Below, one piece after another: positions 3,786 through 64,000 of a DNA stretch of 64,000 nt (within the stretch, counting starts at the first letter, position 1; each line of letters starts with the position of its first letter). The DNA lies in the NCBI GenBank assembly GCA_963669155.1, contig OZ022596.1, forward strand, positions 8,562,802 to 8,626,801. Direction: 5' to 3'. The position numbers were made by a program, and so were the translations under genes. The notes below the pieces were generated by a model. It had not been told where the DNA came from. It did not search any database and worked only from the letters and a program-made list of their open reading frames with translations. This stretch comes from Arbacia lixula (taxonomy: Eukaryota > Echinodermata > Echinoidea > Arbacioida > Arbaciidae).

Positions 3786-6700
3786 GTAAATATACATCAA
3801 ATCTTATTACTGAACTCCTCTAATTAGGATCTTACAATATGGAAAAGTCTTGTAAGAACAATCAGGCCCAATTATTGTAACTCACCATCACTTTAGTCAT
3901 TAAAAGTGTTACATGAAGTATATGTCATATTTTTTTCCTTTTACCCAACTTGCAAGCTGATCACTATTTTCAGACAGCATTTCATCTGTGTGGAGGATGG
4001 CAATACAATAAGCCATTTTCTTCATACATTAACAATATCCCCATAATGTGTAGTAACACTTTCTTGCATTCACCTGCATTTCTTGACTCAGTTTCAATGG
4101 ATAGAACGCACCTTCAATCTATTAGTTGTTGCTACTGGGACAAACCTGTGACAAGCTTTGGGGTTACCATTAGTAAGGAATTGTACGAACATATTTAACG
4201 GAATGCACAGAATATGCATACATAACAAAAATGGTTTATTTCGAGTAGAATAGATAGAAATACACTTGTATCCCTCAATAGCTCGAGGGATCTCTTATGT
4301 CTATCTCTCAACTTTCTTTCCAAAGAATATTTCATCTATGTAGATAGTTCGATTGATATTTCATTTCTATCTCTCAATTTTCTTTCCACAGGATATGTAA
4401 TCTATGTAGTCAGCTACATTAGTGCATAAGGTTCAATAATTGAACAGTGGGGTGTTTCACTAAGCTGTTCGCAAGTTACGAACGACTTTACGAACGACTG
4501 GTGATCCCTTCTTGTGCTTAATGCGATACCACACTTTGTCCATTGAGAAACTGATTTAGCTCAAGAAGGGATTGCCAGCCGTTTGTAAAGTCATTCGTAA
4601 CTTACGAACAGCTTGGTGAAACACCAACCTGATATGTTGTGTCTTTTTTTCTACCCTTTTTTCATAGGATACTTCATCTACGTTGATAGTTACAAGAACG
4701 AGATAGTCACAACGGCTCGATTAACATTTCATTTCTCCCTCTCTCAACATTCTTTCCATGGACACCGACAACTCTACTAATAAAAAAAAAATTAACTCAC
4801 GTCTATCTGTCAACTTTCTTTCCATAATAGACGGTTGTATGAGTGCATAAGGTTCAATATTTCAACTTATAAGTTGTGTCTTGCCCCCAACTTTTTTTTT
4901 TTTTCACAGGATACTTCATCTATGTGGATACTGATGCAAACGAAATAGGCACAACGGCTCGATTGATATCGCCCGTGTACCCAGCAACCTTCCAACGCTG
5001 CCTTCAGCTCTGGGTGTATATGAAGGGTGATAGCCCACCAACACTGAGGGTGACCTTGATGATCGGAGACACACCAATCACAGACCTGCTTGCTCTTGAT
5101 CACTCCCATGCTCTGGAGAGATGGGCGGTGTATCAGAGCACTCTCTCTAGCGCACTGGACTACACGGTGAGTTCTTGCAACATTTAAAGATGGTCCGTCC
5201 CTTTTATAAGTAATTCATGACACAATGCTGTTTGAAGGGTGCATACATTAAAGGGGACCTCCAGTCATTACAAAAACAATACTAGAATTGAATATCAATC
5301 ATCTTGTTGTGGTGTCTTTTATGTTTCTGTAATTAGAAAAAAATGCAATTTACTAATACATCGCACAGAACATCGGCTATCTCGATGTTTCGCGCGTCTA
5401 TTTGATTTGCATGTCCACTAAATTGTTTTGTGTGTTTATTTCAGATACATCTTTGATGTAAGAAAGTTAAATTTCTGCCCGGTGGTTTTTAACCCAAAAA
5501 TAATTTGTAGCACTATTATTTTACTTTCTTGTTACAGGTTGTCTTTGAAACAGATATCAAAACGCAAGGTGTTTTGGCAATAGACGACATCAACATGAAC
5601 AAAGACAACTGTGCACCGTTTGGGTCATGTGACTTTGAGCATGACCTCTGCACGTACTGGAATTCTGAGGAGGATACTTTTGATTGGCTGCGAAACGCTG
5701 GTCCCACGCCCTCAGAGTCGTCTGGTCCAAGCACTGACCATTCTACTGGCACTAGTGGAGGTAACATCAATGCATATTTCTTCCCATTTAAAAGAAGGAC
5801 CCTTGAAATAAGTTAAAATATGTATGTCTTAAATATTTCTGTTTTTAGCTTTTCAAATTGAGTTCTCCGCTTGTTTATCTGGACTATTTCCTGAGGTGCA
5901 AAAAAAAAAGGAAAATCTAATTCATCTTGGGGGTCAATAGATTCGACAAGATCCCTCACCATCATACAATGTATGTCTGCTATTCACTCCCAGGCGTTTA
6001 CATCTATATGGATTCCACCCCTCTCCTCGAGTTCACCTTCACGTCAATAGATTCAACAAGATCCCTCATGATCATGCAATATTGAATATTATTCACTCCC
6101 AGGCGTTTACATCTATATGGATTCCACCCATCCCCTCGAGTTCACCTTCAGGTCAATAGATTCAACAAGATCCCTCATGATCATGCAATATTGAATATTA
6201 TTCACTCCCAGGCGTTTATATGTGTATGGATTCCACCCCTCCCCTCGAATTCACCTTCAGTCAATAGATTCAGCAAGATTCCTCTTAATCATGTGATATG
6301 TGTCACTATTCACTCCCAGGCGTCTACATCTATATGGATTTCACCCCTCCCCTCGAGTTCACCTTCAGGTCAATAGATTCAACAAGATCCCTCATGATCA
6401 TGCAATATTGAATATTATCCACTCCCAGGCAATTATATCTATATGGATTCCACCCCTCCCCTCGAGTTCACCTTGAGGTCAATAGATTCAACAAGATCCC
6501 TCATGATCATGCAATATTTGTCACTATTCACTCCCAGGCATTTACATCTATATGGATTTCACCCCTCCCCTCGAGTTCACCTTCAGGTCAATAGATTCAA
6601 CAAGATCCCTCATGATCATGCAATATTGAATATTATTCACTCCCAGGCGTTTACATCTATATGGATTCCACCCCTCCCCTCGAGTTCACCTTCAGGTCAA

Positions 6701-9700
6701 TAGATTCAACAAGATCCCTCATGATCATGTAATATTGAATATTATTCACTCCCAGGCGTTTACATCTATATGGATTCCACCCCTCCCGTTGAGTTCACCT
6801 TCAGGTCAATAGATTCAACAAGATCCCTCATGATCATGCAATATTGAATATTATTCACTCCCAGGCATTTACATCTATATGGATTCCACCCCTCCCCTCG
6901 AGTTCACCTTCAGGTCAATAGATTCAACAAGATCCCTCTTAATCATGTGATATTTGCCATTATACTCCGCATACTAAGAATGTAACCATATGATTGGTCA
7001 AGAGTTGATCATGTGATAAAGCATAGTTTTGCCCATCTGATTATCTGAGAAGAAAAGTTTGTTACACTCTAGTTGATAGTACTTTTTGGTTTCGCTGATC
7101 TCTTCACTCCTTACAGTCCTAACAGTTCTAACAGTCCTAGATAGCTACATCTAGGTCGCCTGGGAAGTGATAGTTTGTCCCATTACCTTCACCGACGTTG
7201 ATTATTTGCTTACTATTCACTCCCAGGCGTCTACATCTACGTGGACTCCGCTCCTCCCCGCCAGCAATCAGACACGGCCGTCCTGGTCTCGGAGCTGATC
7301 ACCAGCGAGATGTGTCTGTCCTTCTGGTACTACATGGGCGGGGCTCAGAACGGACGACTGGAGGTGGTTGTCGATGGCAACACGGTCTGGAGCCAGAGCG
7401 GCAGCCAGGAGAACCTGTGGATCCATGGGATATCAACCGTCGGAGATAACAACGATCCTACATACTCTACTTCTGTAAGTCCAGTTTAAAGGGATACAGG
7501 TAGTTCACCCTGAAAATAAATTGGTTTCAATAAAAGCAGAAACATGAAATAATCCTATAAGTGAAGGTTTGACAAAAATCTGTCAAAGGATAAGAAAAAT
7601 ATGATCTTCGAAATGTTGATTTTGTGATGTCACTTGCAAGGTGCCCTCCTATATGTAGTGTGCAATATAATGACATGAATTGCTCTCTTTCTGTTTTTGA
7701 TTTTTTTTCATAGAAGAATGTGTGTAAAAAGGAATTTCTTATGATGTGTCAAATGCACAGGTAAAAAGGTGCAAATCTCTTTGAAAAAATGCACACATTA
7801 AAAAAAACCTGTACACAGCATATGAGGGTCAATAGTCTGAAAGTGTATATTTTTGTGTCCCTAGAGTTCCGTGTAATATAATTCATCAGATATTGGACAT
7901 TTAACTTTGAATTTTCTGTATGTATAGTCTTTAACATGTATCAGATAAGATTATATAGTGCAATTGTGAAGTATAGTTTCTTTTTTTATGATGTTCACTA
8001 GTCTTATATCCAGACCCCCCTAAAACCCCATGTCCCTATACAAAAAATCAAAATACATGACAGCATTTCTAACTTATGCTGGAAAGAAGCTCTCATTTTT
8101 TTAATGTGGGAATTATATAAATTGTATAATCTCATGAAATTGATACCAATAAAATGGAATGCATAAGTAAAATTTGACTTTTTTATTAATTCTTTCCTGT
8201 CCCGATGTTTTGCATCAGCTCCGTCACGTAATGTTTTTCTGCCATCTACGACTATCAATAATCGAGTAATTCGAGTAAAACTGTCCTGGCGGGTCCACGC
8301 AGTCCTCACGGAGTGGTGTTTTCCTTAAGGTTCCTGTAATATTTAAAGGCAGTTGTGAAAAATACCAAATTCCTTTCGAAAGTCGGACCGTACCTTTATT
8401 CAGCATCATCTCCGAACGTATATTTTGACATATTAAATGATGCTTATTGCATTTAACTTTGATTGATTCCAAAACCGATCAATTCCCACTGCAATCACAC
8501 AAAGCCGCTTCGAAGCTGCTCTATGCTAACCCGTGCTTTTCTCCCCACGAGTCGCTCGGGCATCAGCTCCGTCACGGTCAGCTCCGTCACACTCCCCCAT
8601 TTGTGTGACGGAGATGACGATTGTGTGACGGAGATGACGATTGTGTGACGGAGCTGATGAGATCTATTTGTTAAATTTCTTAGATTGTTAATTGTTTTTT
8701 TGGAGGTATGACTTGTGAATATATAAAAGTAATACTAGAAGACATAATTGAGGTGAACTGAATCAGTTTTTGGTGCTTGTCTATGTAAATTCTAATGCCT
8801 CTTCTGCCATGTGACGGAGCTGACCGTGACGGAGCTTATGCCCCAGCGACTCGGGAGAAAAGCTGAATAAACTGAAAAAAAAATAAAGATTTATAGAGAG
8901 TCTTTAAAAAGTCAAGTATTCTGAACTAATGACTTATGCGCCAACAGAGAGTTTGGTTTAATATTATAGTATTAAATATCAATGAGCAAGTTGTAATATG
9001 TACATAGTATGAGTCTGCAATCCCCCATCATCTCCGTCACGCTGTGTCAGCTCCGTCACGGTGGTATCTAATCTTGAAAAATGTGGTACAGACTTAAAAG
9101 ATTGATAAGATTTAAATTCACGAATTGAGATTAAAATACCACACTTTGATTAATCTATCAAACTCTGTTCAATCTCAATGGCATGTGGTCATGAAAGTGA
9201 ATGGAAAGTCCCTTTTTTCGTGAAATTCGCAATTTAGTGCTGTGGCATGGTTTTAAATCTACTTAAAAGACTAACAAACATAAAACTATTGATCTTGATT
9301 TGATTACACCTTTATAGAAGTACATTACTTTCTGTTTATGGAATGTAAGGACTGTGATGTATAAACTGAATTGTAAAAACAAATCAAAATATTGTGCAGA
9401 CCTTTCGTGACGGAGCTGACTCAAATTCAGTCAGTGTTGTGAAAAGAGCATAAATATAGTAGCTTAGTCCCGGGAAATAGCGTGCCAAACTATATTTTCA
9501 ATTTTCATGAATAGTTATCACTATAAAAACACCAATAGGAATCATGGATGAGTTGTTTGGATTTCCCTTGGTACCTATCTCTGAAAATATACACTTTCTG
9601 ACTATTCACCCATGAGAGATCACCTCAAACTTGACGTCACAAAACCAAAACTTTAAAAGATTATTTGGTTGTTTACAGTGTACTGTAAAATAGCACCATG

Positions 9701-12700
9701 AGTGGTTTTGCATACTTCACCCTGGAAACTTCATGTTAAAAACAAATACACATTTTCTGATATTGACCTGTATTGTGATTGATACTGTTTTATCATCATC
9801 CATAGTGCTCACGGCTACCGTTGAAACCTTTTCACAGAACAACTGGCCAATTGATGACATCAAACTGGTTACTTTGATCATGTTGACTTATATATGGTAT
9901 TATTATCATCCACCCTATATTTAGAATATGACATTGAACTGAATGTTACATTGATCATGTTAACCTGTACACTTTATCATCCACCCTCTCATACATTGAA
10001 TGGTACTGCTGGGACCCTCTCTAAGAGGGACATTACACTGGATGACATTTAACTAGATATTGTTCTATTAACCATGTTTTGATTGTATCGTCATATCCTA
10101 CTCTATCATTAGATTATTTTTATATACATTACAATAACTTATATATTATATTCACCCTGCTCTAGATGGGTCCTGATCTTACCCCTAAGAGACATGGCTC
10201 TTGATGATATCAACACCTTTTATTGTTGTTTTTATCATATTGACTTGAACACTTTATAATGATTGTCTACCCTATCATTATATCAGTATTATATTTTTTC
10301 ATATTGACTGATACATGGTGTTATTATCATCCACCCTCTCTTTAGATCATGTCCTGGGGTACCATTGGGATGCCCTCTAGAGCGACATTGCACTGGATTA
10401 CATCACTCTAACCCCAATTCCTGTTCCTCTGTTCATATTGACCTGTGCACTATATTCACTTTGTCTTTACCTCATGTTCAAGGGTACAGTTGGGATGCCA
10501 ACCCTAAGCGACATGGCACTTGATGACATCATCTTAACCTCTGATGCCTGCTCCTCTGTTATTACCTCTCATTCACCCTATATTTTTAATATGACATAAA
10601 TTTGAATGTTACATTTATCATATTGACCTATACACTATATCCACTCTGTCTTTATAGATCATGTTCAGGGGTACAATTGGGACGCCCTTCATGAGCGACA
10701 TTGCACTGGATGACATCACTCTAACCCCAATTCCTGCTCCTCTGTTGTTAGCTCTCATCCACCCTTTATTTTAATATGAGATCAAACTGGTTGTTACATT
10801 TATCATATAGACCTATAACCACTTTGTCTTTACATCATGTTCAGGGCTACAGTTGGGATGCCATTGCTAAGCAACATGGCACTTGATGACATCATTCTAA
10901 CCTCCAATGCCTGCTCCTCTGTTATTACCTAGCATCCACCCTTTATTTTAATATGAGATCAAACTGGTTGTTACATTTATCATATTGACCTATAAACCAT
11001 ATCCAATCTGTCTTTATAGATCATGTTCAGGGGTAGCGTTGGGACGCCATTCCTAAGCGACATAGCACTTGATGACATCACCTTAGCCTCTGATGCCTGC
11101 TCCTCTGTTTTTAGCCCTCATCCATGCTATATCTATAATATGACATCAAACTGGTTGTTACATTTACATGTATCATATTGACCTGTAAACTATGTCCACT
11201 CTGTCTTTATAGATCATGTTCAGGGGTACCATTGGGATGCCATCCCTAAGCGACATGGCATTGGATGACATAACTCTAACCTCCTATTCCTGCTCCTCTG
11301 TTATTTCCTCTCATCCACTGTATATTGTTAATATGACATAAAATTGAATGTTACATTTATCATATTGACCTATACACTATATCCACTCTGTCTTTACAGA
11401 TCATGTTCAGGGGTACCATCGGGACGCCATCCCTAAGCGACATGGCATTGGATGACATAACTCTAACCCCTGATGCTTGCTCCTCCGCCACCCCTGAGCC
11501 GCCCTGCTACTTCTACTGCGCAAACGACATCTGTCTCCACAGCCAAGACCTGGTCTGTAACTTCCAAGACGACTGCGGCGATGGAAGTGATGAAGTCAAC
11601 TGCGGTATGTATTCTGATGTCGTGTCAGTTCTTTGGAATCAACTAAAAAGTTCTGTAGCGCTACGAAATTCTAAGCAGTGGAAGACTTGTAAACTTGCAG
11701 TGTATCACAGGTTGCAGCCCATTTTATTGATTAACCTGATCTTACACTCCAAAGATAACTCAGAGATAACACTGTCTCTTGTTGTCTGAGCTGTACACAT
11801 ATTTCTGAATCAAACTCTCTGATATCTCTGAATATATTCTTATTCTCTCATCAGATACAATTTGACAAATATAGTGAAATGCCTTGAGAGGGCCAGTGGC
11901 TTGGATTTATAATGACTCAGTACATATCCCATCGCAGCTTGGGCTTCTGAAAAGTGGTCATAAAAATGGATATGATTCAAGATGCGGGGGAGTGGTAAAA
12001 GGACTTAGGTCGCATAAGAGTATTATTTCAGCTCTCTAACTCTTTATACACCACTCATGCATTTTCGGACAAGTCATACACACTAATTTCCACAGATCAG
12101 CATTTTACTTGCAACACAAAGGGTAAAGCAATAGAATTTACTTCATTTAGATTATTGAGTGCCACATGTGACTTTTTAATACTATATAAGCACAATTAGC
12201 ATTGGTGAGAGTTTATCTGGCACCAAAAGGAGTGAAGGCAAAGTACTAGAACGGACATCATTGTGTTAATGTCGACAGGATCGTGTGACTTTGAGTCTGG
12301 TTGGTGTAACTACACGGATGTGAGTACAGGGAGCATAGAGTGGCAGAGGGGACAAGGGTCTCTCTCTTCAGGTCCCACCAACGACCATACCACAGGGACA
12401 AGTCAAGGTAACCATAGAAACAACTACTTTAAAGGGATGGTTCACCCTGAAATTATTCTTGTTTTAAAAATAAGCAGACGCATGAAAGAAACAGATAAGG
12501 TTTGATGAAAATCCACCAATTAGTTTAACATTTCAGTGTTTATTACTGCAAATAGTACACTGCAACAACATAGACAACATGTAAAAATGGAATTGAATTG
12601 AAGGAAATAATCATCATGGAATTTTGAGACCTTATCAAGGAAGAATTAGGGAATTGTGTTTTCTTGAAATGCTGTGAATCCTGGTTATAGTGAAAATAAC

Positions 12701-15700
12701 AATGAAAGTAAGAGAAATTCATAGATACTGATTAATGTGTTCATCACCTGTGTCCATTGAACACCCTCTGTTTGTAGGATACTACATGTTTGTGGATATG
12801 ACGACTGGAGCGGGTTTCAGCGAAGCTTGGCTGATGAGTCCTGAGCTGAACAAGGCCAGTCCATCATGCGTCATCGAGCTTTGGGCACATATTGCTGGCA
12901 GTGGTAAGTTTTAATTCAAACTCACAATTTCTAGTTCCACCTTTTTGTCTCGCCCACCGGAGGTGAAGGCGAGACTAAGGGATCCAAATGGCGTCCGTCC
13001 ATTGTCCGTCCGTCGTCCGTCGTCCGTCACAAATGTTAAAGTTTACCTGCAAGACTCTCTTTTGACAAATAACTTCACATGGGTTGCTTGGATTACAACC
13101 TAACTTGGGTCATAGATGCACTGGGGGTACCTTCATGTTATGGTACCGTTGGAGGTCACAGGATAAGGTCAAAGGTCATTTGAGGTCATACGTTAAAGTT
13201 TACCTGCAAGACTCTCTTTTGACAAATAACTTCACATGGGTTGCTTGGATTACAACCTAACTTGGGTCATAGATGCACTGGGGGTACCTTCATGTTATGG
13301 TGCCGTTGGAGGTCACAGGATAAGGTCAAAGGTCATTTGAGGTCAAACATTAAAGTTTACCTGCAAGACTCTCTTTTGACAAATAACTTCACATAAGTTG
13401 CTTGGATTACAACCTAACTTGGGTCATAGATGCACTGGGGGTACCTTCATGTTATGGTACCGTTGGAGGTCACAGGATGAGGTCAAAGGTCATTTGAGGT
13501 CATACGTTAAAGTTTACCTGCAAGACTCTCTTTTGACAAATAACTTCACATGGGTCGCTTGGATTACAACCTAACTTGGGTCATAGATGCACTGGGGGTA
13601 CCTCCATGTTATGGTACCGTTGGAGGTCACAGGATAAGGTCAAAGGTCATTTGAGGTCATACGTTAAAGTTTACCTGCAAGACTCTCTTTTGACAAATAA
13701 CTTCACATGGGTTGCTTGGATTACATCCTAACTTGGGTCATAGATGCACTGGGGGTACCTTCATGTTATGGTGCCGTTGGAGGTCACAGGATAAGGTCAA
13801 AGGTCATTTGAGGTCATACGTTAAAGTTTACCTGCAAGACTCTCTTTTGACAAATAACTTCACATAGGTTGCTTGGATTACAACCTAACCTGGGTCATAG
13901 ATGCACTAGGGGTACCTTCATGTTATGGTGCTGTTGGAGGTCACAGGATAAGGTCAAAGGTCATTTGAGGTCATACGTTAAAGTTTACCTGCAAGACTCT
14001 CTTTTGACAAATAACTTCACATAGGTTGCTTGGATTACAACCTAACTTGGGTCATAGATGCACTGGGGGTACCTTCATGTTATGGTACCGTTGGAGGTCA
14101 CAGGATAAGGTCAAAGGTCATTTGAGGTCAGGGATACAATTCTTTTGCGTAGCAACGGAGATCGCGATATTTCTGGTTATTTTCGCAAGTGGGCGAGACA
14201 CAATATTGCTAATGCCTTGTTTTTCTTTGTTTTGTTTTGTTTTTTTTTTTTTGGGGGGGGGGTTGTCGTGGTGTAGTTGTTGCGAGCTGTGACTGAAAAT
14301 CTCAAGGTCTCAAGTTCAAGTCCATTCAAGGCACTTGTGTACTTGTGTGTTCTCCACCCTGGGCCCTGTTGCATAAAACTTACCATTGATGGTAACTCTA
14401 TCATCAATGGTAACTACCATGGTAAAACTGCTTGACAGCCAATCAAATTCAAGGGTACCCTAGCAGTTGCCATTGATAGCAAAGCTACCATCAATGGTAA
14501 GTTTTATGCAACAGGGCACAGGTGTGTTAATTGGGTACCCGGTAGGAATGGGATGACAGGCTGCCATGATTCTGAATGAATTCTTGGGATTGCCTCTTTA
14601 TACCTCCGCAATGCGGATGGCAGATGCCATTATGTTTCCAGGTTAGCCATCTATCCAGACATGCATTTGCTCGTCCATCCGTCCGTCCATCTGGATGTCA
14701 TTTATGCAATAATTCAATGCAATTTGATTCGATTTTTATTTTCATCAAAGTAAAAACATCAAAACAAAATGTAATACATTTGACAAAAAACACATATGAC
14801 GGAGAGAGAAGCACCATATGTAAAATAATAATTGACAAAATTTCATCAAACTTGGTACAAAGACAGAACAATTATTTTATTAGATTTTGGGATTTGACAA
14901 GTTATATGTCAAGATCAAATCATGTATTTTCATAATTTTCTTTGTCTCTCTGTGTTGATAGTTGATCAAATGTTCACGCTGTACATCACGTCTCCTAGTG
15001 GTGTGGATAGGACTTTGCTTCATGTAGTCGTTGAGAGTCAGAGCCGGGACTGGTTCAAGTTGGAGCTTGGGATAGGCGCTCTCAGAGGAACATTCGTGGT
15101 AAGCTTTTGGTCCAGGTTTTTTAAATGCATTTACCTTTAAATGTAGCGTAGCTTTGTTCGAAAAGTCCAAAACTTGACATGGATCAGCTATATATCATAA
15201 CAATGTGATGTCTGACATATCACAGGTACAGCTTTTCAAACCTTGTCAGGAAAAGCAAAAAAAAAATATTTTTTATATCTTTTTTACATCTTTTTTTATA
15301 TTTTATATCTTAAAGGGCATATACTGTACTGGGAAGGCAAAAAAGCCTTCAAAATGTAATTGAATTAAATTCATGGAGTGTCTATTTTAGAAACTTGCTG
15401 GAAGTTATTTGTGATCAAATGGTCTACATTTGGAGTAATGAGTGATTAAATCACAAATCCTCAAAATGTTTGGCCCTAACATTTTGAGGATTTAATAATT
15501 AATTATTAATTACTCCATATGTGGATCATTTGAGGGCAAGTAACTTTCATCAAGCTTCTATAAAAAAAAGACAATACATGAATTTAAGACCATTGACAAG
15601 AAGATTGCTAACAATTACATTTTGAAGGCTTTTTTACCTTCCCAGTACAGTATATACCCTTTAAACACCTCATTTTGTAGCAACCATATTCTAAAGAGTT

Positions 15701-18700
15701 ATACTTTTTTCATTGAATGTAGTGACACACTTTTACAAAAGGTGTGAAACTTAACATGGATCGCCCATATATCATAATTATATCTTGTCTAAAATATCCA
15801 TGTCAAAGCTTTGTAAACCTTTTCAGGAAAAATGACAAATTATCTTTATCTTTGTTTGATGAAATCTTATTGATGCCCTTGTGACGCTCTTCTGGAAACA
15901 CAGATTCTATCGATGCACAATCGTATGAATGTAGCTTATGGCTTTTCCATTACATGATTACAGATCCGGTTTGGGGCTTATCAGTTTTCAACCAATCTCG
16001 ATCATACAGCCTTGGATGATATCACATTCAAGGATTGTGGATATCCAGGTAAGATGATACAGCAATCTCAGGTTTTCAGGGGTTGTATTCCAAAATGCTC
16101 AGGATGAAAAAGAAAATAACCTGCATTATCCAAAAATGTTAGACCAGCACTCACAGCCAGAAACAAGATTATTTGGGGCTACCACTGAACCTGTGTGCAA
16201 TGCATATGCACACTATTGATGAACAAAGGGTAAATATCAAATGTTACTTGTTGCTTATGACCACAGCCATTGCGTCCAATGGATATTTTGCATCATTACT
16301 AATAGTAATAATGCAAAATATAAATAACCTACATTATCCAAAAATGTTAGACCAGCACTCACAGCCAGAAACAAGATTATTTGGAACTACTGTTGAACAT
16401 GTGTACAGTGCATATGCACACTATTGATAAACAAAGGGTAAATATCAAATGTTACTTGTTGCTTATGACCACAGCCATTGTGACCAATGGATATTTTGCA
16501 CCATTACTTAATAGTAATAATGCAAAATATCGATGGCTGCGGTCAAAAGCAATGAGTAACATTTGATATTGATACATGCCAATCGTGCATGCAATGGGTA
16601 CTGTACTATAATGATTTCCTTTGAAGCCGAATATACAATGCTTAGTAAATTCCGAATGAAAGTCTTTTCTCCAAAGAAGTTCCATAAATATAATCATGAA
16701 CTGTAGCTAAACAATTGAACCACTTATTGCACAGTATCAACACCATTCAAACACAATGAAAAAGAATTTGAAACAAACTACAAACAAGCCAAGGCTGGTA
16801 CATTTCTGAAAACCCGGTTCCCGTTTCTGAGTAGGAATCTTGGTAACCGGGTATTCCCAGTTCCCGTAGTAAGCGAGTTAAATCTAGGATTTCTCCAAAA
16901 CTGTATTAAAAAATCTCTCAGCGTCATTGTATTGGATTTGTTCAGTGGATGATATAAATCAAAGTTTTAGTTAAAGGGCTTTCTGGGGTAATTTCAATTT
17001 ACAAAGAAATTTTAGGCATACACCCAGTAGTAAGGATAGCGTGCTCCATCCTGTAAATGAACGAAAAACAAGTCAGACAAAAATCTTGGAACCAGACGGG
17101 ATTTGAACCTGCAGTCTACTGCTTACCGGGCAGCGACTTAACCACGCAAGCTATTTCTAGTTCACGGGTCAAGACGCAACAACATGGAAAGTTTTAATAT
17201 GGTCGTAGTATTTTGAATGATATGAACTATTTTGAGGGGTTTATATGAAACTAATAGGGCAGCACTTTGCACTAATCTATTCATCTTGCAGAGCCAACAC
17301 CGGGTGGCTGCAGTCCTACAGAGTTTGCCTGTGACAACGGAGTCTGCATCGATACTGACCGATACTGCGACCTCACGAATGACTGCGGAGATAACTCAGA
17401 TGAGAACTCATGTGGTACGTTAACCCTCTACGTGCCATACTTTCATTTTTTTCCCTGGGAATACACACAAATCCATGGTTATGACTGCCACTCAATGGGT
17501 CATGTGCTGCTTTCTTGAAACAAATGTAGATTTATAAGGGATAAATTTGTTGGCCTTAAAGTATGCGCATAAGCATAGCAATAAGCCAGTTTTTAGTTGC
17601 AATCTGCACATGATTGTTGCTGGTAGAAAATGATGTCCGATCAATGGCACTTCTCATTAGGTAAAATGAAAATTCAATAGATAGTCAACCATTGTTCAAT
17701 TAATTATCATGTATATATTGCAACAACTATTCAGCTTTGAGAAGGTAGTGAAAGAACATTCCATCATGTGCACCTGCTCCTATTGTTGTTCTGGGCACAG
17801 TAAAATGTCTTACATCCACCTGAATCACAAAATACAGTTGAATGTAAAATTGCATTACTACTCAGTCATGAATACATTACTAAATAGGCTTAAACTTGCA
17901 CCTTCTTTCCATCTACTGTAGATGACTATGCACAGTGTGACTTTGAATCGGGCATCTGCACCTGGTCTCAGCTCACAACAGATGAAATGGATTGGCGGTG
18001 GTATCAAGGACCGGCATCAACACGTGGTACCGGTCCTAACAGGGACCATACTACTGGTCTAGCCACAGGTATTTTCATATTAAAGTCATCTATTTAATGG
18101 TCCTAACAGAGACCATACCACTGGTCTAGCCACAGGTGCGTTCATATTAAAGTCATCTATTTAATGGTCCTAACACAGACCATACCACTGGTCTAGCCAC
18201 AGGTGCGTTCATATTAAAGTCATCTATTTAATGGTCCTAACAGAGACCATACCACTGGTCTAGCCACAGGTGCGTTCATATTAAAGTCATCTATTTAATG
18301 GACTTAACAGGGACCATACCACTGGTCTAGCCACAGGTATGTTTATATTAAAGTCATCTATTTAATGGTCATAACAGGGACCATACCACTGGTCTAGCCA
18401 CAGGTGCGTTCATATTAAAGTCATCTATTTAATGGTCCTAACAGGGACCATACCACTGGTCTAGCCACAGGTATGTTTATATTAAAGTCATCTATTTAAT
18501 GGTCCTAACAGGGACCATACAACTGGTCTATCTACAGGTATGTTCATATTAAAGTCATCTATTTAATGGTCTTAACAGGGGGTAATATTTCTGGGGGGGG
18601 GAGGGGTATGCGGAATAGTGACCAAGGTTAAAACTGCACCAATAGGCCAATCACAGACATAGATTCTAGGGAATTTAAGTCCAAATGCACAGCACTGAGG

Positions 18701-51700: not shown

Positions 51701-54700
51701 AACTTGAATGATTTTGATGTTTTATTGATTTACAGTGGAAATTACAGGGGTATGTTTCTTCACAAAAAAATTATTTGAAAAAAAATAGTGTTAAAAATTA
51801 AAAAGTGAAATAGTAATGAGTTATGCTCTAAGAGGGCCTTCGTCCTGAAAGAGTTCATCCACTTTCATTAAAACCTCTCCTTGTAATCAGCTTTCTTGGC
51901 CATTGTTTCCTCTTTTCTTATGTTAATGTCTAAGAGCCGGTGTGGGAATATCATGTCCCCGATTTAACATGTATTACAACCATACTTTTAGTTATTTTTT
52001 CCTTGTGCTGTTAATGTTAGTGATGTTCAATTCCCGTTTTTTCTCTTAGTATAGATCTTTTGATTTCGTCGTAGTATTCATGTTATAATATGACTATGTT
52101 TTGATACTGCCCTGCATATTCCTTTGTAAATGTATGACCTGGGCTTATTTTTTTTCCTTTGTTGCATTTGCATATTCAATAAAGTGATGTTTAAAGAAAT
52201 GAAACGCATATACCCAGTCTCCAGAATTGTTCTGATCTCAACATGTGTAGACTTTATCCAACTTGTTCTTAGCTGAGCCTTTATATTTGCGGGCTGGCTT
52301 TTCTCCGCTCAGATACTGAGCAACGTGACTCCCACATAATCTGCTGTACTAACAATACAACAGGCTATGAATAAACTCTTTCTTATATACAGTTAAACCT
52401 GTCTTAGTGGCCACCTGTCTATAGTGGCCAGTAAAATAATTCCCCCGGAGAGAGATCATGTGTTAACTCTTAAAGTGCCATAGCGCTGCAAACACGCTAT
52501 TGTTACGGTGCTCGATCGATTGACTGCTTTGTTCAAGCAAGGGCGCTACTGTTCGAGTGCCAGAAGCGCCCTTGCTTGCATTCGTCATAGCAGTCATTGT
52601 TCATGCTTATTGCACATGTACTGAATGCGTCGCACACGCTATTGTTCATCGCATCGCACGCACCAGCTAATCGGCTCTGGATTACGCATGTGTGTTTACA
52701 CCTTTCAGATTGGATTTTCTCGAGTAATTTAGTATTTTGTACTTGATATACAGGATGTACTTATCACTCTCTCACGCAAATAAGGGAATAAAACACAGGA
52801 TGTACATTGTTTACCCAATCGTTTCTAGTCAAGGCATAGCCTATTTGTGGGGTCCAAGGGGGATATTTCTCACAAAATGCCAAATGCAAGTTACCACATA
52901 AACATACAACATTATGAATATGATCTGAAGATAAGGAAGCATGTATGCAGTTCAACCGAATATAGCACAGAAATGACTTCAAAATAAAAAGTACAACTTA
53001 AGGTTTATTATTACTTTATAACAAAATAAGAAAATAAGATCTCCATACAAATTTGATGTCATAATAAAGCTGATAAGATTTTGTACAACTTTTGTGTACA
53101 AATGTTTCTGTAAAAATGAATAAGTTTCAAAATATAGTGGTTCGAAAATGCCAACATAGAAAACACAGCGCAACTAACAAGGCCTCAAAATAAACTTGGC
53201 ACAGGGCGGATTTTGGGCGGGCACAATGGGGATTAGCAGCGTGGCACTGGGCTCTATTCATTGGGCCAGGCTAAGAGTTAAAGAACCTGGCTATAGCAGC
53301 CACCTGGCTATAAAGGCTACAATTTTTGTTTCCCTTGGGTGGCCACTATAGACAGGTTTCACTGTATTTTCAAAACCAAATTGAATACATATCTCATATC
53401 GTAGCTAGTCTTTAAAGGGCATATACTGTACTGGGAAGGCAAGAAAGCCTCCATAAGGTAATTGTTAGCAATCTTCTTGTCAATGGTCTTAAATTAATGT
53501 ATTGTCCATTTTAGAAGCTTGCTGAAAGTTATTTGCCCTCAAATGATCCACATTTGGAGAAATTAATGATTAATGATTAAATCCTCAAAATGTTCGGCCC
53601 GAACATTTTGTGGATTTGTGATTGAATCACTGATTACTCCAAATGTAGATCATTTGAGGGCAAATAACTTTCAGCAAGCTTCTAAAATAGACAATACATT
53701 AATTTAAGACCATTGACAAGAAGATTGCTAACAATTACCTTTTGAAGGCTTTTTTGCTACCCAGTACAGTATATGCCCTTTAACCATGTTTCTGTTTTGT
53801 TTTCCTGTTCAGGTCAAGTTTCAGTCTGTCAGACGTTTTGACGTACTCGGTGATGTGGCAATTGATGATATCAGAATGGAAAACTGTGCTCTGCCAAGTA
53901 AGAATTTTTGGGTATTTTATACTTTATTGGACAGCAATTTTCCTCATTTTTATTCCCTTTGATGGCTTCTTTGATGAATTGACACTTGACAAAATAAGGT
54001 TAGGGTTAGAATTTGGTCTAGAGAAGGGCTAGGGCTAGGGTTGGGAAGGGTTTTATTGAAGTGATTTTAGAGCAATGTTGTAGCCCAATAAATGCAAAAA
54101 CTAATCTTGTTCGCGTACAGCATCTCTGAGCTACAACACACGTTTCAATGGCTTTGCAGTCTGCATACACACACTCAATAGTACACGTGGCCTTAAATAT
54201 CATGTGGAAAAGTGGTTAGGACAATTTTCTTCTGCTAAGTTTGGGGATAAAAAGTTATTACCGCTTGTAATCAGCTTTCTTGTATCATAATTCCTAATAG
54301 CAATCAATGTAAAACTTTAAATAGCAAAACATGAGACATCTCCAAGTGATATATTTTCATATGTGATCTACCAATTTGATTCAATTTTTTGCATATCAAA
54401 AAAAAATTGTAACAAGAAAACATGGAAAATGAAAGATGATTCCACAGCAGAACTTCCCTACCAGCGATAAAACTGAAAACTGACTTTTGGCAAAATTATA
54501 GCAATCGCTAGATTATGAGGAGGTTTTGGGCGGGTCGCCTCAAAGTCTGGAGACTGTTGTGTACTCTAGTCAGCATCTTACTTCTTCACAGTGCATTTGA
54601 TCAATAGGAGTAATGTAAGAATCACACACTGACAGGGACACTATGATTATTCATTTACACTATAGTCAGTGTGTCTTTGACGTAAAGAAGGATAGTTTTC

Positions 54701-57700
54701 ACTCTTCCTGAAAAAGTCCACAAAGCTATGGCTGTGAAATTTCATTATCGATAGGGTATACTGCTGATTCCTGCCGAGTCTCATGACTTTTACAAATGGG
54801 ACACCCTGTCTTTAAGGGGAAAATGTTTTGAGGAAAAAAGTGTAAAGGAGGAAGACGACGAGGAAGAGAGGGAAGAAAAAAGGGATGGAGGGGCGGAAAG
54901 ATCACTGAAGAAATAGGAGCCGATAGTGAAGGATGACACAGGGAATTTGCAAATCAGTTATATCATCAATATAGCAGAGAAAACGATCAGAATGAGTAAC
55001 CCTAGATCCTTATATACAACTCGTGAAATTAGATCACCACCATCACCAACGTCGTCCTGTAGACATAATCACATATCAGATGATGTTTGAAGGTTTGCAT
55101 GGTGGTATGATCAATCACTAGAGAGATTTACAGTACACCATGTGTAAAGTCCTGGGAGGACTGAGATGAGAAAACGTGGATAGAATTGAAGGAGAAATGG
55201 ACAGGCGAGAAAATGGAGATTTGAAAGTAGAGTATTCTTTCAAAATGTGAGTGTAGTCCTGAAAAGGACTGTAAACCAGAAAGCGTGAATAGCTGATGAG
55301 TAAAGAGGTAGACTCACATATCAATCACCAACACCGCACCACCACATCCTCCTCCTCCTACTCTTTTAATTCCCCAGTTCCTCAGTCAGGTGCTTGTGCT
55401 AGTGATGAGTTCCGGTGTGACCGTGCTGCCTGCATCCCTAAGCTAAGGCTCTGTGACTTCACAGACGACTGTGGAGATTACTCAGACGAAGGACCGGAGG
55501 TGTGTGGTAAGTGAGGAATTCAGTTTCTTTAACCATCTCGCTCCTAAACCTTGAAAAGCATAGGCCTATAGAGATAGTACACATTCTTTGTTTTCACGTG
55601 GTTGAGAGGGTTATACTTTAAACAGGCTTAGTGGAGCCTAAGATCAAATGCACAGTGATTGTAATCAAATGTAATCGGCTCCATACATTGACTGCAGTGT
55701 GACTGTAATAGATTGCAATCAGCTGTGACATTGATCTCAGGCTCAACTGTATATGTCTAAACATTCTTTAAAATAAAAGTACCATAGTACCATGTAGGTG
55801 ATGTGCACTCTATATACAGTGGAGCCTGAGATCAAATGCACAGTGACTGCAATCAAATGTAATCAGCTCCATACATTGACTGCAATCTGACTGTAATAGA
55901 TTGCAATTAGCTGTGACGTTGATCTCAGGCCAAACTATATCTGTTTGTGCGACACTGTCATATTTGTATCATGTTTGATTTTAATTTGTTATTAGCAACT
56001 AGAAGTGTTAAAATGGGCTGACATGAGCCTGTGAGAGATAATTCAGTCAAACTTGAAGTTGTGTCGTTTATCTTATCATTCCTGAGTGGTCTTTATGTGC
56101 AGGTTTCACTGTATTATTTTCCTGTGCATTGAATATTATGTTAATGTTCACCACACTCTACAAGCTATGGGCTTTTCTGTGGATACCTTGAATTCATTGC
56201 TTTTCTTTTTATATGATGAATTGAATTGAATTATAATCTTCAACTTTGTACTCCTTGTGTAACGACAGATCAAAATATTTATAAGTGTTATCTTTCTGTG
56301 CCTCACAGCCGACTATGACAACTGTGATTTTGAGGACAGGACATGAAACTACTTTTTTAAATCATAATATATATTTCAATTATCTTCATTTGCCTCACAG
56401 CCGACTATGACAACTGTGATTTTGAGGATGATACATGTAAATAGTTTTTTAAATCAAAATATATATTTCAGTTATCTTCATTTGCCGTACACCTGACTAT
56501 GACAACAGTGATTTTTAAGAACGGTACATGTAACTAGTTTTTTAAATCAAGATATACATTTCAATTATCTTCATTTGCCCTACAGCTGACTATGACAAAT
56601 GTGATTTTGAGGATGGTGCATTGAACTAGTTGTTTAAATCAAAATATACATTTCAATTATCTTCATTTGCCTCACAGCCAACTACAACAACTGTGATTTT
56701 GAGGACGGGACATGTGATTGGCTGTTGGACCCGACTGGCGAGATGACGTTCCAGAGGTACATCGGTCCCTCCGACGACGACTTCAGGACCGGCCCTTACC
56801 GGGATCATACAACGCTGTACCTCGGTAAGATCAGGAAATCTTTAACTCTCCGAGCACCAAGCTAAGAAAAACGCATTTGTTTGTTACCCATGGGACTGAA
56901 AAGGTTTGTATCACACAACGCTGTACCTTGGTAAGAACAGGAAATTGTTAACCCTCGTAGTACCAAGCCATGAAAAACATATTTGTTTGTTACCCATGGG
57001 ACTGAAAAGGTTTGCCTCACACAACGCTGTACCTCGGTAAGAACAAGAAATCACAAACCGTAATACTCCTGGGTACTTATAGAATAAAATTTCAAGACTT
57101 TTTTTTTCTGATCCTTCCCGCACATTTTGATACCATATTTATGGCAATCGGACCTACCGTGCGGGTGTCAGATTACGCTTGCCGAACACATGTTACTGAT
57201 ATTTCGCTATTTCTCTATATGACTGTGTATGACCTTATGGACAAAAGCAGCTGCTTTTCCATTTTATGTAAATACTTTTCTAGTAAGTATCTTTGTTTCA
57301 AATAGTGTAACTAATACCACACACACACACACCCACATTCACACACACCCACACCCAAATAGCAAAAAAACGCTTGACGAAAAACAAAGAAATACATAAG
57401 AAAATTGAAAAGCAACAAAATATATAAGAAATAATTTCCACTACCTATCTTTTTGAAATACCCTGAGAATTTTAGAGTTAACCCTCTTAGTACCAAGCCA
57501 TGAAAAAACGTATTTGTTTGTTATGCATTGGTGTGCCCATGAGACTGAGAAGGTTTGTATGACACAACGCTGTACCTCGGTAAGAACAGGAAATCTTTAA
57601 CTCTCTGAGCACCAAGCTATGAAAAATGTATTTGTTTGTTATACATTGGTGTGCCCATGAGACTGAGAAGGTTTATGTCTCACAACACTGTACCTCAGTG

Positions 57701-58653
57701 CCAACAAAGAAATGTTGAAGGATTTTGAAACTCCTGAAATAAATCAAATTTAATAGAATACGAAAAATTTGAAAAACAGATAGTGTAATAAAGTAATAGA
57801 AAAAACAAACATATTGTAATGATGTCATACATTTTTGAAAATCATGATTTATAGCAATAATTTCTAATCACACAGGCAACTCCTTTGGTCTTAAAAGATT
57901 TTGTAACTGGTGATCATTGCAGCGTTACTTTGCTTTAAAAAGTAGTTTCAAAGGTGATTCATATTTCAGACTTAGATTAACTTTGTGCAGATATTTATAT
58001 TATAAATAGTTAAAACTTTTGATACTTTATATCAGGAGTTATATCCCCTAACCACGTATTTGTGTTGCAATGTCCTGAACCAGAATCACGGGCTATGAAC
58101 AGCTGCGATGACACTGATAAGTCTTCTCTGGGTAAGAGTGACATTTCATTCAAAGGAATATACTGTACTTTGAGGACAAAAAGGCTTCAAAAAAGGGCGA
58201 TCGTAAGCAATCTTAAATGGTCTTAAATTCATGTATTGTCCATTTTAGAAAGTTGCTGAAAGTTATTTTCCCTCAAATGATCTACATTTGGAGTAATTTG
58301 TGATTAAATCACAAATCCTAAAAATGTTCGGGCCAAACAAAAACAGGATTTGTGATTTACTCACTAATTACTCCACTTTTGGGCAAGTAACTTTCAGCAA
58401 GTTCCTAAAATAGACAATACATGAATTTAAGACCACTGGCAAGAAGATTGCTCATGATTTTCCTTGTGAAGATTGTTGACTTCCCAGTACTGTTTTTAAG
58501 ACTGTTGTTTGTCTTCAATCTTCAATCTTCTTTCAGGCTATTACATGGTGGTTGATGCCAGCATACCAGAGTACAAGGAGGGAGACAAGGGCAGGATGAT
58601 TGGCAATGTCTATAGGTCATCTGGCCCAGGATGCAGGGTAGGTAGCTACGACC

Positions 58654-58728
<75 letters not shown>

Positions 58729-58779
58729 TTCTCCCCCTCTCTCTCTCTCTCTATCTCTCTTTCCCCCTCTCTCTCTCTC

Positions 58780-58810
<31 letters not shown>

Positions 58811-58924
58811 CAAAGAGGGAGATGTGCGCATGGTGATAAGAGAGTCTTCATATTACCACAACCAGGCTGTAGGGTATGTAATTAAGATTCCTTTTTCTCT
58901 CTCTTCCTCTCTCTCTCCCTGTCC

Positions 58925-58984
<60 letters not shown>

Positions 58985-61900
58985 CTCTATCTATCTCTCT
59001 ATCTATCTCTCTCTCTCTCCCTCTCTCAAACTCTTGTCTTCTTTCTATGATGCACCAAAACACCTTCCCTTCTCTCCAGTCAAAAAGAAAAAAAGTCAAA
59101 AAGAGAAAAATGTATCATTTACCATCATTTTACTTCCGTGCCACTATTCCTTTCTCCTCATGCCATTCTGTATTCAAGTATTGAAGTTAAGACCCACAAG
59201 AACAATTATTAGTTTCCTGCAAGTTACTGTTTATGTGCCATGTGTTTACACTTGTCTGTCCTCCTCTGATAAAAGGAAGCAAGTGACAAATCACTCAAAT
59301 TGATACTCTAAATTGCACCCAGGATTCCTTACATACAGGCAAAATCTGGACAAGAAATATTCATCTTGCTGCGAGTTATTCAATCTAACATGATGTGGCA
59401 TGACAGACACAGTTTGCTCATTTACAAGAAAAGTCTCTTTTGCTAGTTGCGTGAATAAAATTTGCATACAGGTACATAAAGAATTAATAAGCAACCTTCC
59501 AGTTGCGAGGCACTGGGTTTTGTGTATACTGTAGTCAACTGTGCTTTTGGAAGCTATCCATGTATGTATTTAACGAGATTTGATAATCTTCTCAACATTA
59601 TTGCCGGTACTGTGCAATGCTCTGTTTTTTCTAGGTACCTCAGGAGGTTCCCTCCCTCCTGTATTTTCTGTATTTTGTACATTTTTGTTGTTCCAATGCA
59701 ATGTTGTGTTTTCTTTGTGCGTTTTTTTGTAATTTTCTGTCATTCTTCTGTATCTTTTTACCAGAGGAGGCTGACATTCTGTATTTTTATATAAACAATA
59801 AAATTGAATCTTGAATCTTGAATCTTCCCTTTTGTCAGATTAAGGCAGCATAATACACAATCCCATAAAGTTAATTTATTAAGTCTTTTTTAAGCAGGGT
59901 AGCCCGATCAGTGAGCATGGCACATGAAAGTAAAGTGGTTTCTCTATTTGTCCCATTCCTAGTTCCGGCTATGGTACCAGATGTATGGCTCCAACATGGG
60001 AACTCTCAACGTCTACATGCGTACGAACATCGGAGGTTACATGACTACCTTGTTCACCAAGACTGGCCATGCCAATGAATACTGGGAACTTGCAGATGTA
60101 GCCCTACCCGACGCCGGCAGTCCCAATTTCCAGGTGGGTTCTTTGTCTATTTATTTTTTTCACCAAGACTGGCCATGCCAATGAATACTGGGAACTTGCA
60201 GATGTAGCCCTACCCGACGCCGGCAGTCCAAATTTCCAGGTGGGTTCTTTGTCTATTTATTTTTTTCACCAAGACGGACCATGCCAATGAATACTGGGAA
60301 CTTGCAGATGTAGCCCTACCCGACGCCGGCAGTACGAATTTCCAGGTGGGTTCTTTGTCTATTTATATGAAGAAACATCATGTAAATTCCATTATAAATA
60401 AATACAACTTCAAAATCATTCTAGTTAGAACAAAAATCATGCCAATTTGAAGAGCAAAAGAGGGATTTCAACCTTTTCAGTGATTTGCCAATTTGAAGAT
60501 TAAGTGCCCATTTGCCCCTTATTTTACTTTGAAGAATAATTACTAAGGTAACATATACTGTGAAACCTGTCTAGAGTGGCCACCCAAGGGAAACAGAAAT
60601 TGGGGCCTTTATAGACAGGTGGCTGCTATAGACAGGTTCTGTAACACATGATCTCTCTCTGGGGGAATCCTGTTAGTGGCCACTATAGATAGGTTGGCTG
60701 CTATAGACAGGTGGCCACTAAGACATGTTTGACTGTACCACTTAATGCCCAAAATGGATTCATCTTGTGCAGAAATGTATGCTCTTTCCTGTGATGCATC
60801 TGTTATGATATTTAACAGTTCATATTAATAATTAAAGCCCCAAACCACATATTTGTGGTACTTGGTCCCAAATGGTTAAATCGATTAATATTCTAATTTA
60901 TTATCTCTTCCTCCACAGATTGTGATTGAGGCTGTGAGAGGTGATGGGCCATATAGCGATATCGCCATTGATGATACGTCCTACACTCCAGATTGCACAA
61001 TCACTTCAGGTAATGGTTGCATCAAGAGATTTCACAATACCACAACAAAGCACATTACAAGACAGTATTTAAATATTACGTATTGATTTTGAGTTAATTT
61101 AATTAAATTCAGTGATTTGTCACTATTACTTTTTTTTATATCAGAAATATGGTTATTGTCTTTGATTAAACAGGGATGACCTTATTGCTCTTTGGTGACA
61201 TGTTATATGTAAAGTGACAAGGTAGTTACTGAAAGTTTCTAGAGTAACAAACTTACATTATTCATCTTCAGTTTTGAAATCATTATTTGATTACCAACCT
61301 TGTGGCTTGTGGATATGATGCTGACAATAAATGTTCTGCCTTGTCACATTAGTGCCTCATTGACTGCAACACTCTGGGTCTATTCACTATTCTTTTCTAT
61401 TCTATTCCTTTTTGAGAAAATGTTGTTGATTGTTTTGTTATTGTGTGTTGCTTTTATCTCTGTTTAGAATACCAATCTAGTATCTTTCCTCATTTTTCTG
61501 ACTTTCTATCTATCTACTGTATCTATCTATCTAAGTGCCATATCAGGAGACGTAGGTGATCATGGAGTGCCACAAATCTCTGTTTCTAGCTGTTTGAATC
61601 AGCTCCACCTCCCGCTGACCCGCACCTCTCTCTGTAATCCATGCATTCAGACTGGTCATCCAATTCATTCGTTTCCTTCCTCTATCCCTCTTTCCCTCTA
61701 TCTTTCCTGTCAGTGACAAATTTTCAAGGTATTTTTCTGGTATTTTTTAATTAGGAGGATTACCTTCGGGCACTACAACACCAGCTTCTACCACCATAGG
61801 GCCATGTGGAGCAGGAAAATGGCAGTGTGCCAATACAGACTGCATTGATGCTGACCAATACTGTGACTACCAGACGGACTGCTCCGATGGCTCCGATGAA

Positions 61901-64000: not shown

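Follow-up and report, generated by a model that had tools for sequence, protein, structure and literature searches.

In amphioxus, the minisatellites termed mirages are built of tandem units that lie across exon-intron boundaries (PMC3087553, PMC3902484). The accessible parts of these reports place them at both 5′ and 3′ boundaries, with spare copies that carry AG or GT, a unit number that varies between haplotypes, and regular splicing that was undisturbed as judged by RT-PCR. Exon stuttering, described genome-wide in 2026 for the chicken dot chromosomes, was tied to high GC (PMC12954441). In the available portion of that report, more than 90% of the stutters lie no farther than 1 base from the border of the exon, their exon parts span 20–187 bp with a median of 36, the controls are shuffled introns and distal introns, without real intron segments, and the word "mirage" is absent. 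As far as the accessible extracts go, paralogs from human segmental duplications carry internal tandem repeats at exon-intron boundaries (PMC2812944), and potato RdRp has gained an intron via tandem genomic duplication (PMC4974935). Among the matches listed, by title or abstract, no report concerned exon-edge repeats in an echinoderm.

We analysed a 64,000-nucleotide stretch of the Arbacia lixula genome (contig 21, 8,562,802–8,626,801; hereafter the window), from an assembly of 607.0 Mb in 590 contigs, which holds 46 plus-strand exons of a MAM/LDLa mosaic gene. The exon-edge repeats of this gene are of the mirage or exon-stutter kind, already published, and we regard the gene as a further case, notable for its density of repeats, their age range and a datable paralog. 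As in the mirages described, the units comprise part of an exon and the adjoining intron while the coding exon stays intact, both boundary types are affected (13 starts and 8 ends), and many spare copies keep AG or GT (48 of 57). In mirages the unit number varies between haplotypes; the comparison here is between paralogs, whose unit counts differ in 12 of the 18 shared window arrays. Unlike the mirages as reported, the repeats here occupy about 20 of the 46 exons of one gene, with identities from 97% to about 67%, and whereas mirage splicing was followed by RT-PCR, the window gene is known from sequence alone.

The copies also resemble the described chicken stutters in lying in neighbouring introns and not elsewhere in the gene. 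Repeating the chicken screen on the window gene gave 25 proximal and no distal hits at the bit-score threshold of the chicken study, in 10 of 45 introns; 21 of the 25 lay no more than 1 base from the border, and none of the five shuffled-intron controls exceeded 18.3 bits. The exon part is comparable, 13–109 bases with a median of 46.5 (16 edges), against the range and median given above for chicken. The setting, unlike that reported for the chicken, is not GC-rich, with 37% GC in introns and 52.5% in exons. The human paralogs share the minisatellites at exon-intron boundaries; their repeats, as described, alter coding sequence and can make introns, whereas the exon borders here are identical in both paralogs. 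The potato case is likewise one of tandem duplication bearing on splice sites, and no new intron was seen here.

The MAM/LDLa gene and its inverted paralog

The gene occupies 3651–64000 on the plus strand, as supported by frame, Pfam and paralog, and continues past the right end of the window; further MAM exons lie upstream of the window too. The exon map comes from a simple exon-chaining model that initially gave 79 exons, of which 46 were retained by eye for their MAM/LDLa likeness, with exons 4, 14, 20, 22, 27, 31 and 32 corrected by eye; the initial join held 19 stops, which disappeared with the correction of exon 32. The joined frame of 2482 codons has no stops, with AG and GT at each internal edge, and matches to Pfam MAM and Ldl_recept_a were obtained in the first 356 residues of the predicted protein.

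An inverted paralog lies on the minus strand of the same contig at about 9.78–9.84 Mb, 1.2 Mb from the window. All of exons 1–46 were mapped in it; no mapped edge has lost its AG or GT, and 45 joined exons form an open frame. Comparison of the two genes gave a dS of 0.146, a dN of 0.0073 and a dN/dS of 0.05, and the window gene is thus under strong purifying selection. Since the paralog keeps its AG and GT sites and an open frame at low dN, the exons are real and the exon map is independently supported.

Other elements were recorded in and around the gene. A MITE-like element of about 300 bp has six intronic copies (15310–15668, 33344–33724, 41796–42056, 47130–47482, 53408–53788 and 58148–58490) with matches in both orientations. 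A 200-codon open frame at 25226–25825 appears reverse-transcriptase-like by eye, with no Pfam match at 1e-3. Outside the gene model, a 65-bp array of 21 units (1357–2738) has a consensus unit with a donor-like CAA|GTAAGG, and no functional exon was found beside it; a long inverted repeat, or foldback, was seen by eye upstream of the gene (423–760 and 945–1290). Neither RNA families (at the gathering threshold) nor tRNAs were found in the window. Elsewhere, matches containing MAM recur regularly every 4 kb or so on contig 1 (9.559–9.592 Mb), in what is probably a tandem array of genes or domains.

Anatomy of the exon-edge copies

When the introns on either side of an exon were searched with that exon plus flanking sequence, copies running across the edge turned up at 21 of 91 edges, distributed over 20 of the 46 exons. 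Two hits were left out of this count, one at the end of exon 29 (E 0.002, with 8 exon bases) and one at that of exon 31 (a TGG repeat); a stricter exon-only rule finds an edge copy in 18 of 45 exons. All features given below are on the plus strand.

Starts are copied at exons 2, 4, 5, 15, 16, 20, 25, 26, 27, 28, 29, 35 and 40. Exon 2 (4910–5166) has start copies at 4278–4969 with at most 60 exon bases. Exon 4 (7227–7474) has nine copies of a 109-bp unit at 5916–7264 with 38 exon bases, with a dispersed repeat (6956–7217) lying between array and exon. An array of about 185 bp at 9873–11485 takes in 86 bases of exon 5 (11400–11604), copies at 21619–22479 take in 97 bases of exon 15 (22383–22554), and a tandem pair at 22787–23051 reaches 13 bases into exon 16 (23039–23141). 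Exon 20 (29231–29365) has a faint copy at 28975–29035; exon 25 (37277–37406) is touched by a 92-bp array at 36926–37299 whose exon part has diverged; and a faint copy of the exon 26 start (38460–38609) at 38254–38336 runs 10 bases into the exon. The copies of exon 27 (40040–40299) at 39396–40148 hold at most 109 exon bases, those of exon 28 (41683–41773), an 87-bp array at 41289–41705, hold 18–23, and those of exon 29 (43345–43482) at 42794–43398 hold 54. Exon 35 (49586–49699) has a faint copy at 49063–49172, and in the paralog the same start is crossed by a 146-bp array with a 94% match. The start of exon 40 (56678–56824) is copied in a 92-bp array at 56269–56726 with 49 exon bases.

Ends are copied at exons 11, 13, 32, 33, 36, 40, 42 and 44. 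The end and donor of exon 11 (17922–18068) lie in a 67-bp array with seven extra copies (18032–18580; 37 exon bases), and the end of exon 13, at 20337, has a single copy at 20687–20744. Copies of the ends of exon 32 (46341–46575) and exon 33 (47533–47762) were found at 46543–46825 with 33 exon bases and, as a 141-bp array, at 47719–48266 with 44, and that of exon 36 (50128–50268) at 50475–50521. Exon 40 is copied at its end as well, in a 106-bp array at 56804–57719 with 21 exon bases. The exon 42 array (exon 59963–60133), three 106-bp units at 60050–60366 with 84 exon bases, is recent and its site is single-copy in the paralog. Copies of the exon 44 end (61800–61910) lie at 61844–62388 with 67 exon bases.

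Arrays confined to introns form a control class, among them seven 157-bp units at 13030–14130 (three copies in the paralog). A recent, non-crossing pair of 208-bp units lies at 16107–16530 and is single-copy in the paralog, and a 96-bp array at 30715–32337 starts about 100 bases past exon 21. In the last of these, an open frame of 233 codons runs through some units (30725–31868), with no Pfam match at 1e-3.

The original prediction had named 22 exons with edge copies, and 17 of them stand. At exon 17 the array begins 3 bases inside the intron, exon 21 has an exon-interior match only, with the 96-bp array off to one side, and the exon 22 copy is intronic. Exon 31 has a TGG microsatellite and an exon-interior match, for which a reversed control scores as high, and exon 41 a CT microsatellite equalled by its reversed control; in the paralog, however, exon 41 carries an edge copy. 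Conversely, exons 20, 26 and 35, with weak copies of 67–71% identity, had not been listed. The proposed range of ages holds at its young end, exon 42 being near identity at about 97%; the faint remnants claimed at exons 17 and 21 were unconfirmed, and the lowest identity is about 67%, with most copies at 70–95%.

Start copies lie upstream of their exon and end copies downstream, as predicted, with one exception, in which 14 bases from the start of exon 44 recur downstream (E 0.007). Seven wrong-side matches were obtained in all: this one, five that lack any exon base, and one from the interior of the block at the end of exon 44. We reject polarity as a sign of a process, because a tandem duplication across an edge can leave a spare copy on the intron side only. 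Units in the clusters used for the tests below measure 43–257 bp. Because the copied exon part can be anything between 13 and 109 bases long, breakpoints do not coincide with the splice site. Base-by-base inspection of eight arrays found clean ends in five, where −3 to 13 bases were left after division into whole units, hence little junction homology, and partial units in the other three.

Arrays at exon edges: excess, birth and persistence

Whether exon edges are copied more than expected by chance depends on the null. The original prediction had staked its proposal on random intron segments being tandemly copied less often than exon edges, and the raw counts go against it: 18 of 45 real exons (40%) have an edge copy, against 240 of 800 intron pseudo-exons in the window (30%; Fisher p = 0.18). 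Similarly, 24–29% of 60-base intron segments have a local copy, compared with 19–24% of exon edges (score thresholds 20–25). Counting each array once gives an excess of about threefold in the window gene: of 24 tandem clusters, 15 span an edge, with 4.9 expected from random length-matched placement (P = 5e-6). The two tests differ because introns contain each array many times over, and with pseudo-exons weighted for this multiplicity only 9–11% within the gene have edge copies, against the 40% of real exons.

The 24 clusters were drawn from 33 local clusters after dropping two outside the gene, six dispersed pairs, one of which crosses the exon 13 end, and one TGG microsatellite, which crosses the exon 31 end; some unit lengths in these cluster tests were set by hand. 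An automatic recount gave 16 of 26 clusters crossing with 5.1 expected, and TRF, a stricter detector, gave 8 of 19 with 3.1 expected (P = 0.006). GC-driven seeding within introns was considered and rejected; the non-crossing TRF arrays have GC of 0.23–0.46, around the intron mean of 0.37.

The excess is one of proximity as well as of crossing. The numbers of arrays crossing an edge, within 8 bases, within 130 bases and farther away are 15, 2, 6 and 1, against 4.9, 1.0, 5.5 and 12.7 expected, and eight of the nine non-crossing arrays lie within 130 bases of an exon. Among arrays within this distance, 15 of 23 cross, compared with 43% expected (P = 0.025), so that shelter through proximity alone explains part of the crossing and not clearly all of it.

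Geometry alone might produce such figures if introns were short when blocks of about 130 bp arose and later intron growth made the excess. With usable intron capped at 300 bp, 12.2 of the 24 clusters are expected to cross against the 15 seen (P = 0.16), some of the intron sequence does consist of dispersed repeats, and few arrays lie far from exons, as the single array in the farthest class attests. Removal of the recognisable dispersed repeats, however, hardly shifts the result (15 against 5.8 expected), and the paralog's introns are mostly similar in length, so short introns were not the rule at the split. We consider this explanation unlikely.

The paralog also allows the arrays to be dated. 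Of the arrays common to both paralogs, 15 of 20 cross an edge, whereas of those born since the split 2 of 8 do, with about 1.5 expected. The contrast rests on only eight births and has a Fisher p of 0.03, or 0.09 with one ambiguous array moved. Born since the split means multiple in one paralog and a single site in the other, a classification made by the author of the analysis that scored the exon 27 and exon 29 arrays as shared and the exon 41 array as new, and excluded three arrays whose site is absent from the other paralog as well as the TGG arrays. The two recent crossing arrays are those of exon 42 in the window and exon 41 in the paralog. There is an arguable case for a third crossing birth, which would bring the count to 3 of 8 at most: a 169-bp insertion beside exon 28 of the paralog is crossing by a pairwise-gap method, while TRF locates the array 24 bases clear of the exon. 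The pairwise-gap method itself was dropped, because its gap placement within arrays was arbitrary and known arrays escaped it. Copy number has changed even where arrays are shared: the exon 5 start has six copies in the window and one in the paralog, the exon 4 start nine and seven, and the exon 11 end seven and four.

Age within the window gives a less clear picture. Among arrays of at least 90% identity 4 of 10 cross (1.9 expected, P = 0.11), and among less similar arrays 11 of 14. At a threshold of at least 85%, the count is 9 of 15 against 3.0 expected (P = 6e-4), an excess that counts against a pure age effect.

The original prediction left open whether other genes behave alike, and edge copies do occur elsewhere in the genome, in 9 of 32 exons upstream of the window and in 3 of 43 exons of dynein genes. 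Two of the dynein heavy-chain stretches illustrate them, one (L033) at 3969–4328 and the exon at 4918–5283, the other (L034) at the exon of 5314–5505. The control exons are ab initio predictions from a model that was exact for 37 of the 46 known exons in the window that it was trained on. Raw comparison with pseudo-exons was not significant for the paralog (14 of 45 real exons against 195 of 800), the upstream exons (9 of 32 against 195 of 800) or the dynein stretches (3 of 43 against 85 of 800). By clusters, 81 kb of other genic sequence shows no crossing excess (5 of 20, 4.3 expected), made up of 41 kb of upstream MAM exons (4 of 14, 2.6 expected, one of the four taking in a predicted exon at both its ends) and four dynein heavy-chain stretches of 10 kb each (1 of 6, 1.8 expected). 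Edge copies thus also occur outside this part of the gene, to which the crossing excess, as far as sampled, is confined. The contrast between window and controls, 16 of 26 against 5 of 20 clusters (Fisher p = 0.02), is inflated by the choice of a conspicuous window, and it cuts both ways, against genome-wide edge-seeking and against plain persistence, which should show in the controls too.

We propose that these arrays probably reflect ordinary random tandem duplication, with exon-crossing arrays persisting and remaining recognisable for longer. Short blocks would duplicate in tandem at more or less arbitrary sites in a duplication-rich gene, with about four local clusters per 10 kb in the window gene, perhaps through staggered-break fill-in or replication slippage. 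A block across an acceptor would leave a spare copy of intron and exon start upstream, and a block across a donor a spare exon end and intron downstream. Arrays would then grow and shrink in the manner of minisatellites. With the exon half of the reference copy held by selection, crossing arrays would stay recognisable for longer, and sequence beside exons may turn over less than intron interiors. This persistence reading draws on the crossing excess among arrays older than the split, on the similar raw rates of real exons and pseudo-exons, on a youngest class (90% identity or more) that is not significantly enriched, on the controls, on the changing unit counts between paralogs, on the strong constraint on the exons and on the mismatch pattern of the copies given below. 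The observations that run counter to it are the crossing excess with each array counted once and its retention at 85% identity or more, the low rate of multiplicity-weighted pseudo-exons, the controls without excess and their difference from the window, the ab initio origin of the control exons, the small number of births behind the paralog contrast with its arguable third crossing birth, and the closeness of non-crossing arrays to exons, which a local process would predict too.

Such a process, seeding duplications at exon edges, was proposed in the original prediction; breaks, R-loops or fork stalling at the junction of exon and intron would be examples. The proposal draws strength from the threefold excess once arrays are counted singly, from that excess persisting at 85% identity and above, from the difference between window and controls, and from the two recent arrays that cross edges in exons 42 and 41. 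It is set back by post-split births that stay near chance even at their highest count, by the lack of excess in upstream exons and dynein genes, by exon parts with no fixed breakpoint, and by the similar raw rates of pseudo-exons; we therefore find it improbable. The wider form of the idea, that tandem duplications arise preferentially at the exon edges of this gene through a local process, not driven by GC, that is common to amphioxus, birds and this animal and has left scars at about two fifths of the exons, strikes us as improbable too.

Spare splice sites and their decay

For splice-site analysis we listed 57 copies by hand, of which 48 retain AG or GT. Scored with a generic metazoan matrix of our own making, 26 of these 48 reach at least the score of the functional site. 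At exon 11 (17922–18580) the used donor scores 5.6 by this matrix and the seven spare donors downstream score 9.9–10.4. None of the 48 gives a longer exon that is in frame and free of stops; the first spare of exon 33 would do so, yet it has lost its GT. Mean mismatch between copy and functional site, over 19 arrays aligned without gaps so that small shifts inflate the values, is 0.12 over 12 exon bases and 0.27 over 10 intron bases. This is as expected, because on the exon side a copy drifts against a held exon and on the intron side both parts drift. The mismatch of the AG or GT dinucleotide itself (0.08) is not significantly different from that of the exon side.

These data bear on the possibility that selection maintains the copies, whether for service as decoy or back-up sites in splicing or as raw material for new exons and introns. 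The many retained and high-scoring sites fit that explanation, and mirages have been proposed, in the accessible text, as a route to new introns (PMC3087553). The copies nevertheless decay like unconstrained sequence, with a dinucleotide no better kept than the exon bases to a significant degree, their numbers differ between paralogs, and none of the retained sites opens a usable extension; selection on the copies is very unlikely. An assembly artefact, with false duplications or collapsed haplotypes, is scarcely credible, since the copies are mostly well short of identical and most crossing arrays recur in the diverged paralog, although tandem arrays are hard to assemble and only one assembly was used.

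Returning to persistence, we read the copies as decaying neutrally while splicing presumably uses the authentic site. With the authentic exon intact, duplication is tolerated, though many spare sites match the real one, and the sequence thus agrees with the original suggestion that decoy splice sites are tolerated. This tolerance may operate via exon definition.

The gene links the literature on amphioxus mirages with that on avian exon stuttering. The same repeats are dense here in AT-rich DNA, and GC-richness is thus not required for them. The recent paralog separates births from survivors and leans towards persistence over edge-directed birth. By placing many strong copies of splice sites beside the real ones, the edge-crossing arrays of this gene constitute a natural test of splice-site choice.
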